From a bacterium (GTDB lineage Bacteria; Patescibacteriota; Saccharimonadia; Saccharimonadales; UBA4665), in NCBI GenBank assembly GCA_021851735.1, contig JAJZCD010000008.1:1-39091 (forward strand): a stretch of 39,091 nt of DNA, written 5' to 3'. Each line of letters begins with the position of its first letter. Position 1 is the first letter of the stretch. The translations under genes and the position numbers were made by a program. Below, piece after piece: positions 1 through 38,911 of the stretch. Below the pieces are notes generated by a model. It saw only the letters and a list, made by a program, of their open reading frames with translations, was not told where the DNA came from and searched no databases.

Positions 1-2
1 CG

Positions 3-230
3 ACAGATGACATTAGAGATATGCGATTTGACGCACGTATTATTGCCGTGGGAGTTCTAACAAGTCATAGCAAAAACCGCGAACTTAGTACGGATGTTTA
101 TGAGATTGACGCATTAGCTGAGTCAATTTTGCAAACCTATATAATGGCCGGGTTGAGTCCAACGGACGTCACTACGGCTGCAACACCATACCAAAACTTT
201 CTGAATAAACAAACAACTTTGCAACAATAA
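3..230 (+). CDS. C-terminal fragment of an unknown protein, cut by the window edge
   Basis: The frame is open from the first bases of the window, so the in-frame ATG at 21 is probably internal and only the last 75 residues are seen. The fragment is polar, has no membrane segment and ends in a Gln/Thr-rich tail. I recognise no family. A strong hairpin with a T-rich tail follows 29 nt after the stop, as expected for the end of a transcription unit. It is the only gene of the left part, besides the transposase, on the plus strand. Confidence 0.5.
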   Translation, partial: TDDIRDMRFDARIIAVGVLTSHSKNRELSTDVYEIDALAESILQTYIMAGLSPTDVTTAATPYQNFLNKQTTLQQ

Positions 231-258
231 GCCGTCTGTAGTAAAATTACAGGCGATT

Positions 259-300
259 AAGACCATCGAGTCCAAGCGATTCGGTGGTCTTTTGCATTTT
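259..300 (+). terminator. Intrinsic terminator of the left-edge gene
   Basis: An 11-bp stem (AAGACCATCGA with TCGGTGGTCTT, one G-T pair) encloses an 11-nt loop and is followed by TTTT, GCA and six T. It sits just after the stop of the left-edge fragment. Confidence 0.8.
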
Positions 301-328
301 TTCAGCCTATAGGTTTTATGCGGAATAT

Positions 329-402
329 GGGGATGTAGTTCAACAGCAGAACGTACGCCTGCGAAGCGTGAAATACGGGGGCAGAACCCGTTATCTCCAC
401 CA
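329..402 (+). tRNA. tRNA-like sequence, anticodon GCG (Arg), atypical D and T loops
   Basis: A full cloverleaf can be drawn: a 7-bp acceptor stem (GGGGATG with TATCTCC, two G-T pairs), T8 and A9, a D stem GTTC/GAAC, a 5-bp anticodon stem with the seven-base loop CTGCGAA, a 4-nt variable region, a T stem ACGGG/CCCGT and an encoded ACCA end. The anticodon would be GCG (Arg, CGC/CGU). The D loop AACAGCA lacks the usual GG, and the T loop GGCAGAA lacks the near-universal TTC. It could be a divergent functional tRNA, a non-translational tRNA, or a decaying copy next to an insertion element. Confidence 0.5.
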
Positions 403-444
403 CCTTGGTGGCCGTACATTAAATATCCGTCCTGTTAGCAGAAG

Positions 445-469
445 CAAAAAGAGACCCGGCCGGGTCTCT
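445..469 (-). terminator. Palindromic hairpin with T5 tract on the minus strand
   Basis: The perfect 20-nt palindrome at 450-469 (AGAGACCCGG and its complement) is followed on the minus strand by TTTTT, the form of a minus-strand terminator. The only upstream minus-strand gene is the Ntn hydrolase at 1526, now separated from it by the transposase. The insertion element may have landed between that gene and its terminator; this is inference. Confidence 0.55.
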
Positions 470-596
470 GAGTGCCTGCGAAGCGTATGTCTTCATTTTA
501 GCATATGCGAGCCGACAGGAGAACTATGCCTTCTAACCACGAAAGGTCTTTTAAATGCGTCCTCAATATACTTGCTGCACAGGGAATAATAACATC

Positions 597-625
597 TTGC
601 ATTGTGTACTTCTATGGTGTATAAT
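597..625 (+). promoter_or_regulatory. Promoter of the IS1595-type transposase
   Basis: TTGCAT at 597-602 and TATAAT at 620-625 are separated by 17 nt. The ATG at 636 lies 10 nt after the -10 box with no Shine-Dalgarno sequence, so the mRNA would be leaderless or nearly so. Confidence 0.7.
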
Positions 626-1530
626 AAAACACAAGATGCGATACACATTTGCCCAATTCAAAGCCGAATACCCCGATGATGCCGCCTGTTTACGGGCAGT
701 CTTAGAAAACCGCTATGGCGACACTTGTCCTCGCTGTGGTGTAGTAGGCGTAAAGTGGCACCCGATTACTGGGCGCAAGGGCTTTGTCTGCTCAGAATGC
801 GACCGCCACGTCTACCCGTTGGCTGATACTATCTTCCGTAAGTCTGAAACGTCCTTATGGAACTGGTTTTATGCTATTTTCCAATTCTCAGTTGCTAAGA
901 ACGGTGTATCAGCTAAGGAGCTAGAGCGTACACTGGGAGTAACGTACAAGACAGCATGGCGAATGGCCAAGCAGATACGCTTGCTTATGGAGCAGGACAG
1001 CTTTACGCTGGGCGGCCCAGATAGTCCGGTTGAGATAGACGAAACCTATGCCCCCAGCCGCAAGCACCAGCGTAAGTACGGTAATAGTCTAAAGCAATCT
1101 ATTTTCGGTGCAGTTGAGCGCGACGGTATGGTACAGGCTATGCACGTTCGGAGTACGGGCGCCCGCGTACTACTACCAGAGATAGAACAACGTATCGTTA
1201 AAGGCACGTTAGTCTACAGTGACGAATACGGTGTGTACCGAACGCTTGCAAGGCGTGGCTACTCACACACCACCGTCAACCACTCCAACCTTGAGTATGT
1301 CCGGGGTGACGCCCACACGAACACCATAGAGGGGTTCTGGGGTAACATGAAGAACAGCTTACAGGGTACATTCCATGCGGTATCACCAAAGTACCTGCAG
1401 CAGTACGTGAACCAATTCGTCTTTATGTATAACTACAGGACTATTCCTGTTTGCCCTGTTCTTTTGGAACGGGCTGCGAAGCTTTTTTGATTAGTTTCTT
1501 GAAGAGTTTCTTGCTCATAGTTTTATTATA
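620..1530 (+). mobile_element. IS1595/ISXO2-type insertion element, ends uncertain
   Basis: The element consists of one transposase gene. An 11-nt inverted repeat (TATAATAAAAC at 620-630, complement at 1520-1530) brackets it, but the left copy is also the -10 box, so these may not be the true terminal repeats. I see no clear 8-bp target duplication. The real ends probably lie between 470 and 620 on the left and near 1500-1530 on the right. Confidence 0.45.
636..1490 (+). CDS. IS1595-family (ISXO2-like) DDE transposase
   Basis: This 284-residue transposase has an N-terminal zinc ribbon (CPRC near residue 31 and CSEC about 20 residues later), a helical DNA-binding stretch, and an ISXO2-like catalytic core. 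The core motifs are VEIDETY, LVYSDEYG, and HTNTIEGFWGNMK followed by the family-typical VSPKYLQQYVNQFVFMYNYR. The ATG at 636 matches the family N-terminus (MRYTFAQF) and sits just after a good promoter; the frame extends upstream to 555, but those codons overlap the promoter. The protein looks intact, so the element may be active. It keeps zinc-binding cysteines, unlike several host core proteins here. Confidence 0.9.
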   Translation: MRYTFAQFKAEYPDDAACLRAVLENRYGDTCPRCGVVGVKWHPITGRKGFVCSECDRHVYPLADTIFRKSETSLWNWFYAIFQFSVAKNGVSAKELERTLGVTYKTAWRMAKQIRLLMEQDSFTLGGPDSPVEIDETYAPSRKHQRKYGNSLKQSIFGAVERDGMVQAMHVRSTGARVLLPEIEQRIVKGTLVYSDEYGVYRTLARRGYSHTTVNHSNLEYVRGDAHTNTIEGFWGNMKNSLQGTFHAVSPKYLQQYVNQFVFMYNYRTIPVCPVLLERAAKLF

Positions 1531-2098
1531 TGACAGGAGTAAGTATCTCGACTGTCATGTCACCGCCGACTTCATTCGGGAACTCACCGCTTGCATCGAG
1601 TAAGACCTGGTTTACTGCCAACTCCAACTCATCTGTTGGTGTGCTTTCATCTATACCTATACTCTCGCAAAGTTGGTATGCAAACTGGTCTTTTCCAGCC
1701 GCCAAGTAAGACCTTTTCACGCTGGCAAAATTAAAAGAGGGGTGTTGAATGTATTTAACTACGGGCGTCGTTTCATTAAAGCCAGCTATCAGAAATACTA
1801 GGTCACCCGTAAATCCGCCACCAATGAGAACACGTGCGCGACGCTGTAGCTCTTCGGCTATATCGGTAAAACTAACAAGATTTAGTACTTCGTTTACCTC
1901 GTATGTAAAGTCTCGCAAAAACTGGTCTACTGCCCCTGAGTTGAAGCGATTGCCAGCAACAAGAACTGCTAAGTTATCGGTAATTTTGTATAGCTTTCTA
2001 GCATTGTAAAAGATTTCACCAGTACCAGCATCTCCCCGCAAAGAGTCTGCGCCAACTACTATCTCCGAGTTGTTATGGATAGCAATAACTAGTGTCAT
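1526..2098 (-). CDS. Proteasome-like Ntn hydrolase (20S beta fold), stand-alone
   Basis: The sequence starts M-T-L-V-I-A-I and then VVGADS, giving Thr1 and Asp17 at exactly proteasome-beta/HslV spacing once Met is removed. ARKLYKI supplies a Lys at about position 34 (the catalytic Lys33 equivalent), followed by a VAGN segment, a YLAAGKDQFAY segment like the beta-subunit GSG region, and a C-terminal GGDMTVEILTP that matches the last beta strand. The start at 2098 is preferred because it exposes Thr by Met removal; the frame continues to an ATG at 2155, which would add 19 residues. There is no neighbouring ATPase such as HslU, and the protein is neither a clear HslV nor Anbu. A peptidase role is inferred from the conserved catalytic residues. 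Confidence 0.7.
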   Translation of the reverse strand: MTLVIAIHNNSEIVVGADSLRGDAGTGEIFYNARKLYKITDNLAVLVAGNRFNSGAVDQFLRDFTYEVNEVLNLVSFTDIAEELQRRARVLIGGGFTGDLVFLIAGFNETTPVVKYIQHPSFNFASVKRSYLAAGKDQFAYQLCESIGIDESTPTDELELAVNQVLLDASGEFPNEVGGDMTVEILTPVI

Positions 2099-2272
2099 AT
2101 TAGTGTTAATAATATCATTGAAAGTTGTCATCATGTCGAAGCTGAGGTTTCCCATAACTTACCTACCCTACCTACTTGCTGTCATGGGATAGTCGCCGTT
2201 CAAAATGATTGTGTAATTGGGCTGATGAGGGTGTTTGTGCGGCGTAGACTTGTTTATGGTACGCGTATAACT

Positions 2273-2301
2273 AAAAACTTCCCAAATTTTGGGAAGTTTT
2301 T
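2273..2301 (-). terminator. Terminator of the infA-to-rpsI operon
   Basis: The stem AAAAACTTCCC/GGGAAGTTTTT has a central AAATTTT that pairs further, making a near-perfect palindrome with A- and T-runs on both sides. It lies 24 nt past the rpsI stop and could act in both directions. Confidence 0.9.
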
Positions 2302-2324
2302 ATGCCACGCACGAGCCCACAAGC

Positions 2325-2735
2325 TTAACGCTTAGTGAACTGCCGTTGTTTTCGAGCGCCTTTCAAGCCAAACTTCTTGCGTTCTCGTTCGCGTGGGTCT
2401 CGACTTAGGAGATTAGCCCGCTTAAGTGTCGCCTTGTAGTCGGCATTGAATTCTACTAGTGCTTTAGCAATCCCTAAGCGAATTGCGTCAACCTGGCCGC
2501 TATGGCCACCGCCGCTTACGACGACCGATACATCAAAGTCTTTTGTTGGGACCTCGAGTGTTGTAAACGGTCGTTCAAGTTCTGTTATCAACGTCTTGCT
2601 TCCGGCAAGGTACTCATGGGCGGGAGTACCATTGACAACGATATTCCCTGTTCCCTTTTGAACTCGCACGCGAGCAGTAGCGCTCTTGCGGCGTCCCAGA
2701 GCGTAGTAGTAGTGCTTCTGTGTCGCGTCAGCCAT
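2325..2735 (-). CDS. rpsI: 30S ribosomal protein S9
   Basis: S9 is a head-domain protein of the small subunit whose C-terminal tail reaches the P-site tRNA. The 136-residue product has the family N-terminus (YYYALGRRKSATARV), the central GGGHSGQ loop (residues 75-81) and the basic end GARKQRQFTKR with terminal Lys-Arg. Its ATG overlaps the rplM stop (TAATG), with AAAGGGAG inside the rplM end as ribosome binding site, so the pair is translationally coupled. It is the last gene of the operon. Confidence 0.97.
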   Translation of the reverse strand: MADATQKHYYYALGRRKSATARVRVQKGTGNIVVNGTPAHEYLAGSKTLITELERPFTTLEVPTKDFDVSVVVSGGGHSGQVDAIRLGIAKALVEFNADYKATLKRANLLSRDPRERERKKFGLKGARKQRQFTKR

Positions 2736-34265: not shown

Positions 34266-34871
34266 TTACTCAGCCTTTTGTGAAATCTTAATATCATTGA
34301 TAACTTTGTCAACAATGCCATATTTCTTAGCTTCGTCAGCTGTCATCCAGCGATCACGCTCCATGTCTTCGTGGATACGCTCAGCCGTTTGGCCGGTGTT
34401 TCGAGCCATAATGTCCTCGAGGAGTTTCTTGATGCGTAAGCTCTCGCGTAAGTCAATTTCTTGATCTGTAACTTTTCCGCGCGTACCGCTACTGGGCTGA
34501 TGGATCATCACTGTGCTGTTGGGCAACAAGAAGCGCTTACCTTTTGTTCCACTACTCAATAAAAATGCCGCTGCGCTTGCTTGCACCCCGATCCCTACGG
34601 TCTGTACATCATTAGTCACATACTGCATTGTGTCGTAAATCGCCAACGCGTCATATACGCTGCCGCCCGGGCTATTAATGTACATGTAGATATCTTTTTT
34701 AGGGTCTTCAGCCTGAAGAAACAGCAGTTGCGCAACTACGACATTAGCACTAGCCTCATTCACGTCGCTACCCAAAAATATAATGCGGTCTTTCAGTAGG
34801 CGGCTATATATATCATAGGCACGTTCGTAGCGGCCCTCACTCTCAACTACAGTTGGAACTAATACGCTCAT
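34266..34871 (-). CDS. clpP: ATP-dependent Clp protease proteolytic subunit
   Basis: ClpP forms the tetradecameric protease chamber used with ClpX or ClpA/C. From the ATG at 34871 (GTGAGGT site upstream) the product is 201 residues. The catalytic triad is visible: Ser99 in [12 protein letters not shown], His124 in MIHQP and Asp173 in the ERDRWM segment. [17 protein letters not shown] and the Arg-Gly-Lys-x-x-D heptamer-contact loop are also present. The frame extends to 34985 through the promoter and is rejected. A CIRCE element overlaps the promoter, indicating HrcA-controlled stress expression. It follows tig, the common order. Confidence 0.96.
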
Positions 34872-34967
34872 GGTGTGAACCTCACTTTCTTTTATAGGAC
34901 ACCGAAACGCGACGAAGGTTAGGTGCGTCGGATGAATGTCCGTAGTCCGGTACTCTGTACGGTATCT

Positions 34968-34996
34968 ATAATAAGAAATTGGCACTCGATAGTCAA
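34968..34996 (-). promoter_or_regulatory. clpP promoter
   Basis: Minus strand TTGACT, 17 nt, TATTAT. The -35 hexamer lies inside the CIRCE spacer; the leader is about 90 nt. Confidence 0.75.
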
Positions 34997-38476: not shown

Positions 38477-38911
38477 TCAAACTAACGTTACGTTAGTTTG
38501 CCCCGCATCCTCCAAACCTTGATTCTCTATGTATCGCCGAATGACCTCTTCGTTAATGCCAACGGTACTGACGAAGTAACCTGCCGACCAAATACTGTCA
38601 GTGCCCCAATATACCTTCTTGAGATGCGGAAACTTTTCATTCAGGGCTTTTGCTGTCACGCTTTTCAAGGCTCTGACGACCATCCCGACTGACTTAGTGG
38701 GCGGGATGGAAACCAACAGATGTACATGGTTCTGGTCAGTATTGATAGTTTTGATGATAACGTCGGGATGATACTCCGGCCACGACTTCAGAAATTCCTT
38801 GAGATAGCCCTGAACCCCATCGTTGAAGATACTCTTTCGGTATTTCGTCGGCCACACCAGGTGGAAGTCACAGGCAAAGACACAGTGGCTCATTCGTCGA
38901 TACACGGGCAT
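38477..38911 (-). CDS. tnpA: IS200/IS605-family Y1 transposase TnpA
   Basis: The 144-residue HUH single-strand transposase has the metal-binding HUH motif His62-Val-His64 (NHVHLLVSIPP) and the catalytic Tyr127 (VIRRYIENQG), with HLVWPTKYRKSIF near the N-terminus. It appears full length. A TATACT box ends 6 nt before the ATG and there is no Shine-Dalgarno sequence. No TnpB/IscB-type partner gene is in the window. The stop codon is embedded in a perfect hairpin that may also be part of the element's end. Confidence 0.92.
   Translation of the reverse strand: MPVYRRMSHCVFACDFHLVWPTKYRKSIFNDGVQGYLKEFLKSWPEYHPDVIIKTINTDQNHVHLLVSIPPTKSVGMVVRALKSVTAKALNEKFPHLKKVYWGTDSIWSAGYFVSTVGINEEVIRRYIENQGLEDAGQTNVTLV

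Follow-up and report, generated by a model that had tools for sequence, protein, structure and literature searches.

The left end of contig JAJZCD010000008.1 from a Patescibacteriota genome (assembly GCA_021851735.1; the whole 39,091-nucleotide contig is referred to here as the window) raises the question of why a gene for a proteasome-like N-terminal-nucleophile (Ntn) hydrolase should lie there, facing a transposase gene. The best overall explanation, to which we assign a probability of about 75%, is that the gene encodes a proteasome-fold hydrolase carried as the cargo of a transposon and that its product acts as an accessory effector.

A 209-aa open frame at 1526–2155 on the minus strand, taken from the open reading frame (ORF) list, matched the Pfam proteasome family PF00227 over residues 23–182 with 25.4 bits against a curated cut-off of 22.4 (E 1.3e-5). 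Counting from the Thr that follows an internal Met, the protein has Thr1, Asp17, Lys34 and an oxyanion Gly48, with the Lys one residue later than Lys33 of 20S and HslV, and a VGG strand motif is found in its C-terminal end region. When the window protein was aligned with four relatives sharing 18–36% identity with it, the columns without variation were limited to Met0, Thr1, Asp17, the Lys, Gly48 and one more Gly. Invariance of the active site at this level of identity excludes a chance match and, in relatives this divergent, indicates that the active site is under selection. The gene almost certainly encodes a compact proteasome-fold Ntn hydrolase, judging from fold and active site at the sequence level. 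The fold is taken as settled on these grounds, and an AlphaFold2 model computed without an alignment (predicted local distance difference test score 55, predicted template modelling score 0.61) is counted as supportive only. When this weak model was compared with the PDB using Foldseek, the 50 matches listed were all 20S subunits (E 0.004–0.014, template modelling score about 0.25–0.42). Profile searches of PDB sequences also returned 20S subunits, with the 20S beta chains matched from Thr1 on.

The genome (1.13 Mb, 97.7% complete) was searched for partners. No HslU, ClpX, Mpa/ARC or PAN was found among its AAA+ proteins, which, named by reading the sequences, are ClpC, a Clp-like membrane protein, FtsH, RuvB, RarA, DnaX and a HolB-like protein. 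In the Clp-like protein (787 aa, G000:C8:46185-46673), the first of the ATPase domains is altered and there seems to be a membrane segment; a normal ClpC is also encoded. There is no second PF00227 protein in the whole genome, and hence no 20S-type alpha partner. The NCBIfam HslV, PrcB and 20S/archaeal proteasome equivalog models did not report the window protein even at E = 10. Hence the original prediction, made from the sequence alone, of a proteasome-like Ntn hydrolase with Thr1, Asp17 and a Lys near 33–34 in proteasome spacing, a C-terminal strand motif, differences from HslV and no HslU, Mpa or partner subunit nearby stands in each of these respects, and the absence of partners extends to the genome. 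The HMM (hidden Markov model) comparison with HslV and 20S and the genome search for AAA partners that it had proposed are those given here.

By sequence, then, the protein is not HslV, although it shares with HslV the fold and the Thr1/Asp17/Lys triad. It differs from a 20S beta subunit in the missing alpha partner and in positions Ser129, Asp166 and Ser169, which by eye are not conserved. Anbu, connectase and BPH are likewise stand-alone members of the proteasome-like family. The window protein differs from Anbu in ending just past the last core strand, without the long C-terminal H5 coiled-coil helix, and appears to differ from connectase, which lacks H1/H2 and has a helical insertion between S3 and S4: the low-confidence model has helices after S4 at residues 54–72 and 77–93, corresponding to H1/H2, and no S3/S4 insertion. 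It is very improbable that the protein serves as a proteolytic core to which one of the cell's general unfoldases delivers substrates; both ClpC and FtsH are available in the genome, but ClpC has its own ClpP (encoded in the window at 34266–34985) and a mobile gene is unlikely to depend on a co-adapted docking site.

Translation probably starts at the ATG at 2098, which gives a 190-aa protein with Thr directly after Met, rather than at 2155 (209 aa). The ATG at 2098 is not preceded by a Shine-Dalgarno sequence, which is clear before most genes of the window, and has a −10-like TATTAT 10 nt upstream. The same leaderless layout, with a −10-like box 6–10 nt before the ATG, is seen in several homologues, and a leaderless mRNA with a Met-Thr N-terminus would be the simplest reading of this start. 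The upstream ATG at 2155 is preceded by a weak purine-rich site. A 19-residue propeptide from that start is a possible alternative; it was adopted at first and then given up for the leaderless start. Propeptides are reported to be confined to proteasome beta and HslV subunits (PMC8665760).

The ends of a transposon enclose the gene. An exact 25-bp right inverted repeat, GGCGACTATCCCATGACAGCAAGTA, lies between the Ntn gene and rpsI. Elsewhere in the genome this exact sequence recurs only once, at C44:9267, which is 183 bp short of the end of contig C44; the end of this contig is identical to window positions 1–126 save for its own last four bases. An 8-bp target site duplication (TSD), GTTCAAAA, precedes the left repeat on C44 and follows the right repeat in the window. 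The contig overlap and the exact repeats together give an element of 2,250 bp (53 + 2,197), of which the first 53 bp are on the overlapping contig C44. Beyond its left end is trpS (named from sequence, as in relatives), and trpS comes directly or shortly after rpsI in several relatives, which places the insertion between these two genes. The rpsI-trpS site is found both with and without an insertion among relatives, which fits a mobile element. With very little doubt, and as read from the sequence, the Ntn gene is a passenger of an IS1595-family transposon inserted between rpsI and trpS.

The transposase was present in 29 of the 93 genomes of the family, and five further elements (L096, L097, L100, L101 and L104) were found to have inverted repeats close to GGCGACTATCCCATGACAGCAAGTA as ends and perfect 8-bp TSDs (GAAGCATA, TAGCTGGT, CTTTTGGC, GCGCAGAA and AATGTTGC, respectively). 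The repeat scan, allowing up to 6 mismatches, gave no matches in 270 kb of control sequence. L100 and L101 are complete elements from other genera with divergent Ntn hydrolases in the same slot. Their two Ntn-like proteins are 32% identical to each other and unrecognised by Pfam, and their active-site positions all line up with those of the window protein (hhalign 88%, E 3.5e-6). Elsewhere the cargo differs: a retropepsin-like protein in L096 (by eye, with a weak PADLOC peptidase match), a PBECR-nuclease-like protein in L098 (below the Pfam cut-off) and membrane proteins in L097 and L104 (by eye). A further IS1595-type element (L128:1190-3625 in genome G022, TSD GATATTTT) includes a gene for a protein whose residues 1 and 17 are Ser and Asp as well as one for a membrane protein. 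This cargo (L110/L128) is tentatively regarded as a fourth Ntn cargo; it had no Pfam match and an hhalign probability of 5%.

In the transposase tree, the window element grouped with L096–L098 (ultrafast bootstrap/Shimodaira-Hasegawa approximate likelihood ratio test 99/97), while L100 and L101 were in a separate clade with L099 (100/99). The elements with transposases closest to that of the window thus carry other cargo. DNA similarity between the siblings was limited to the repeats and to the transposase gene plus about 40 bp beyond its stop, and did not extend to the cargo. This limit, together with the tree, indicates that the slot has been refilled, and the tree and DNA comparison indicate that Ntn genes were acquired by it, or swapped, in more than one event. 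As read from the sequences, the conserved backbone is the transposase and the 25-bp inverted repeats, and exchangeable genes occupy a slot behind the transposase gene and are read in the direction opposite to it. In one pair, L099 and L100, the transposase genes are closely related (88% DNA identity) and the cargo is unrelated, which looks like a recent exchange.

The Ntn protein is absent from both congeners and was not found among 59 relatives or in 380 genomes of the phylum. Searching 393 genomes from the order for PF00227 gave seven positives, including L047 and L046. L047 (genome G511), with 36% identity over 205 aa, is the only clear relative in the family; its gene adjoins hsdR, and the 4-kb contig that holds them has no element ends. 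A profile of the window protein, L047 and L046 led to L090 (genome G027), where, exactly as in the window, an Ntn-like gene and an IS1595-type transposase gene converge. Searches of phages and plasmids with the window protein and L047 (tblastn) gave no match, and pattern scans of viral and genome contigs, some with artificial degenerate probe rows and insensitive to distant relatives, gave no confirmed relative. The earlier proposal that the enzyme is specific to this lineage did not hold, as it is missing from both congeners, has one 36%-identical counterpart and more distant ones in the sampled family and is the cargo of an IS1595-family transposon.

These data bear on two alternatives. A resident, lineage-specific, self-compartmentalising peptidase with a transposase neighbour by coincidence would suit the missing partner ATPase and the compact architecture, which is compatible with a ring (the low-confidence model has no insertion that would forbid one). 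It is barely credible, as the element ends and TSD enclose both genes, L100 and L101 have the same arrangement with their own duplications, and the congeners lack the gene; the resident-gene reading was dropped as already contradicted by the anatomy of the element. Alternatively, the cargo may serve the element, controlling transposition through degradation of the transposase or of a host factor. The fixed position convergent with the transposase gene and the presence of such cargo in elements with different transposase subtypes would fit this, but the elements with the closest transposases carry unrelated genes instead and the closest relative of the Ntn protein is outside any visible element, making such a role rather unlikely.

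Of the 22 subfamilies of stand-alone proteasome homologues described previously, some (PPH, AAH) are phage-borne, and no genomic context suggesting a specific function was reported (Fuchs, Alva and Lupas 2021, PMC8665760). The window protein resembles them in its proteasome-beta fold, Thr1/Asp17/Lys/Gly47 active site, lack of a co-occurring AAA+ partner and sporadic distribution; it differs in being encoded on an insertion sequence (IS)-type transposon. IS1595-family and other IS are known to carry passenger genes, those named for the transporter IS (tIS) being regulators, methyltransferases and resistance genes (Siguier et al. 2009, via PMC11891212). The window element shares with the tIS the IS1595-type transposase, inverted repeats, 8-bp TSD and enclosed passenger, whereas its own slot is exchangeable and holds a proteasome-fold hydrolase. 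A literature search limited to open papers (without subscription papers or ISfinder) gave no report combining IS1595 with a proteasome homologue; both parts are known and the combination appears to be unreported. A hydrolase class is thereby added to the passenger genes of IS, and a protein-cutting fold familiar mainly from the cell's large machines is seen moved as mobile cargo. A stand-alone proteasome homologue also gains a defined genetic context, a complete transposon with exact ends that is repeated in at least two other elements. Only the active site is strictly conserved among these Ntn cargoes, and carriage as mobile cargo suggests why such homologues are so patchily distributed.

Our best guess for the function, from sequence features, is a threonine peptidase that needs no ATP and serves as an accessory effector. 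Methionine aminopeptidase would remove the Met and expose Thr1, which would be activated by Lys34 and Asp17. With no dedicated ATPase, the enzyme would act on its own or assembled into a small homo-oligomer or ring, and its substrates would be a limited range of peptides or unfolded proteins. It would have spread as an accessory effector, most likely for competition or defence at the level of the cell. An active hydrolase is likely on the conserved residues. The protein might instead ligate or process its substrates, in the manner of the monomeric archaeal connectase, or be a binder without activity. The proteasome-like family does include a ligase (PMC8665760) and the Ser129, Asp166 and Ser169 positions are lost, but the catalytic triad and oxyanion Gly are invariant and the predicted H1/H2 helices, in the low-confidence model, are elements that connectase lacks; this alternative is unlikely.

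A role of the proposed effector in defence or competition is possible, if not the likelier outcome. The small-hydrolase cargo in the same slot and the hsdR gene beside L047 hint at an effector or defence role. Restriction-modification genes were found within four ORFs in four of 14 varied PF00227 loci (L052, L062, L063 and L064), mostly of other subfamilies than the window protein, which is suggestive only; none were among the 25 top families listed for 20 control stretches, where three ORFs were covered rather than four. Several points weigh against the explanation preferred here. The structure model is weak, and the last four bases of C44 differ from the window, so that the joining of the two contigs depends on their overlap together with the repeats and the TSD. 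In the window protein, L047 and L046, the 20S residues Ser129, Asp166 and Ser169 are by eye not conserved, and as Asp166 and Ser129 belong to a second triad needed for efficient proteolysis in the 20S proteasome (PMC4792962), catalysis could be slow, or the protein could function as a ligase or a binder. No PADLOC model matched the Ntn protein, and the context for defence is thin, with the closest relative beside hsdR on a short contig without element ends. Comparing the element with and without its cargo, and the active form with a Thr1 mutant, would provide a testable setting. We suggest tentatively that in these small-genome bacteria a group of IS1595-family transposons has an exchangeable slot stocked with small hydrolases that are mobile effectors, for instance in defence or competition. 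An equally speculative extension is that this slot, with its proteasome-fold threonine hydrolases, retropepsin-like and nuclease-like proteins, reflects repeated capture of the proteasome fold as a transposon weapon.

Table 1. Features of the element and its surroundings (window coordinates)
Feature	Position	Strand	Basis or remark
Element portion inside the window	1..2197	.	First 53 bp on C44
Small left ORF of element, about 79 aa	1..230	+	Begins 10 bp left of the window on C44; ATG L130:2811, TAA 228-230
IS1595/ISXO2-type transposase, convergent with Ntn gene	636..1490	+	PF12762 E 4.8e-36, PF12760 E 1.8e-6
Proteasome-like Ntn hydrolase, preferred start, 190 aa	1526..2098	-	PF00227, invariant active-site columns, start evidence
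Ntn hydrolase codons	Thr1 2093-2095, Asp17 2045-2047, Lys34 1994-1996, Gly48 1952-1954	-	
Optional 19-residue N-terminal extension, if upstream ATG used	2099..2155	-	ORF list, weak purine-rich site
Right terminal inverted repeat GGCGACTATCCCATGACAGCAAGTA	2173..2197	-	Identical to left repeat at C44:9267
TSD GTTCAAAA, right copy, 8 bp	2198..2205	.	Left copy precedes left repeat on C44
Perfect inverted repeat between element and rpsI, read as rpsI terminator	2272..2302	.	
rpsI, right-hand neighbour of insertion	2325..2735	-	

Other mobile and proteasome-like loci were seen. In the same genome, a related repeat with three mismatches (L127, G000:C30:2083) has an opposing repeat-like sequence about 300 bp away and is perhaps a small non-autonomous relative of the element, and a second IS1595-type transposase gene (L094, G000:C23:15825-16265) is broken by a stop. 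An IS200-like Y1 transposase (PF01797 E 1.7e-33) is encoded near the right contig end (window 38477-38911, minus strand). Genome G160 (L003/L057) has overlapping ORFs of 263 and 279 aa in prcB-prcA order, and the beta-like protein is more canonical, with a GTT motif and a TIGR03690 match below the cut-off (E 9e-12); the second gene was suspected to encode an alpha partner and was rejected, having no Pfam match. In three genomes (L008/L061, L009/L062 and L011/L064), a gene for a 320-aa Ser1 proteasome-like protein directly follows a small DNA-binding-type gene, which in L009 encodes a LexA-type domain (Pfam), and restriction-modification or DUF2779 genes adjoin.
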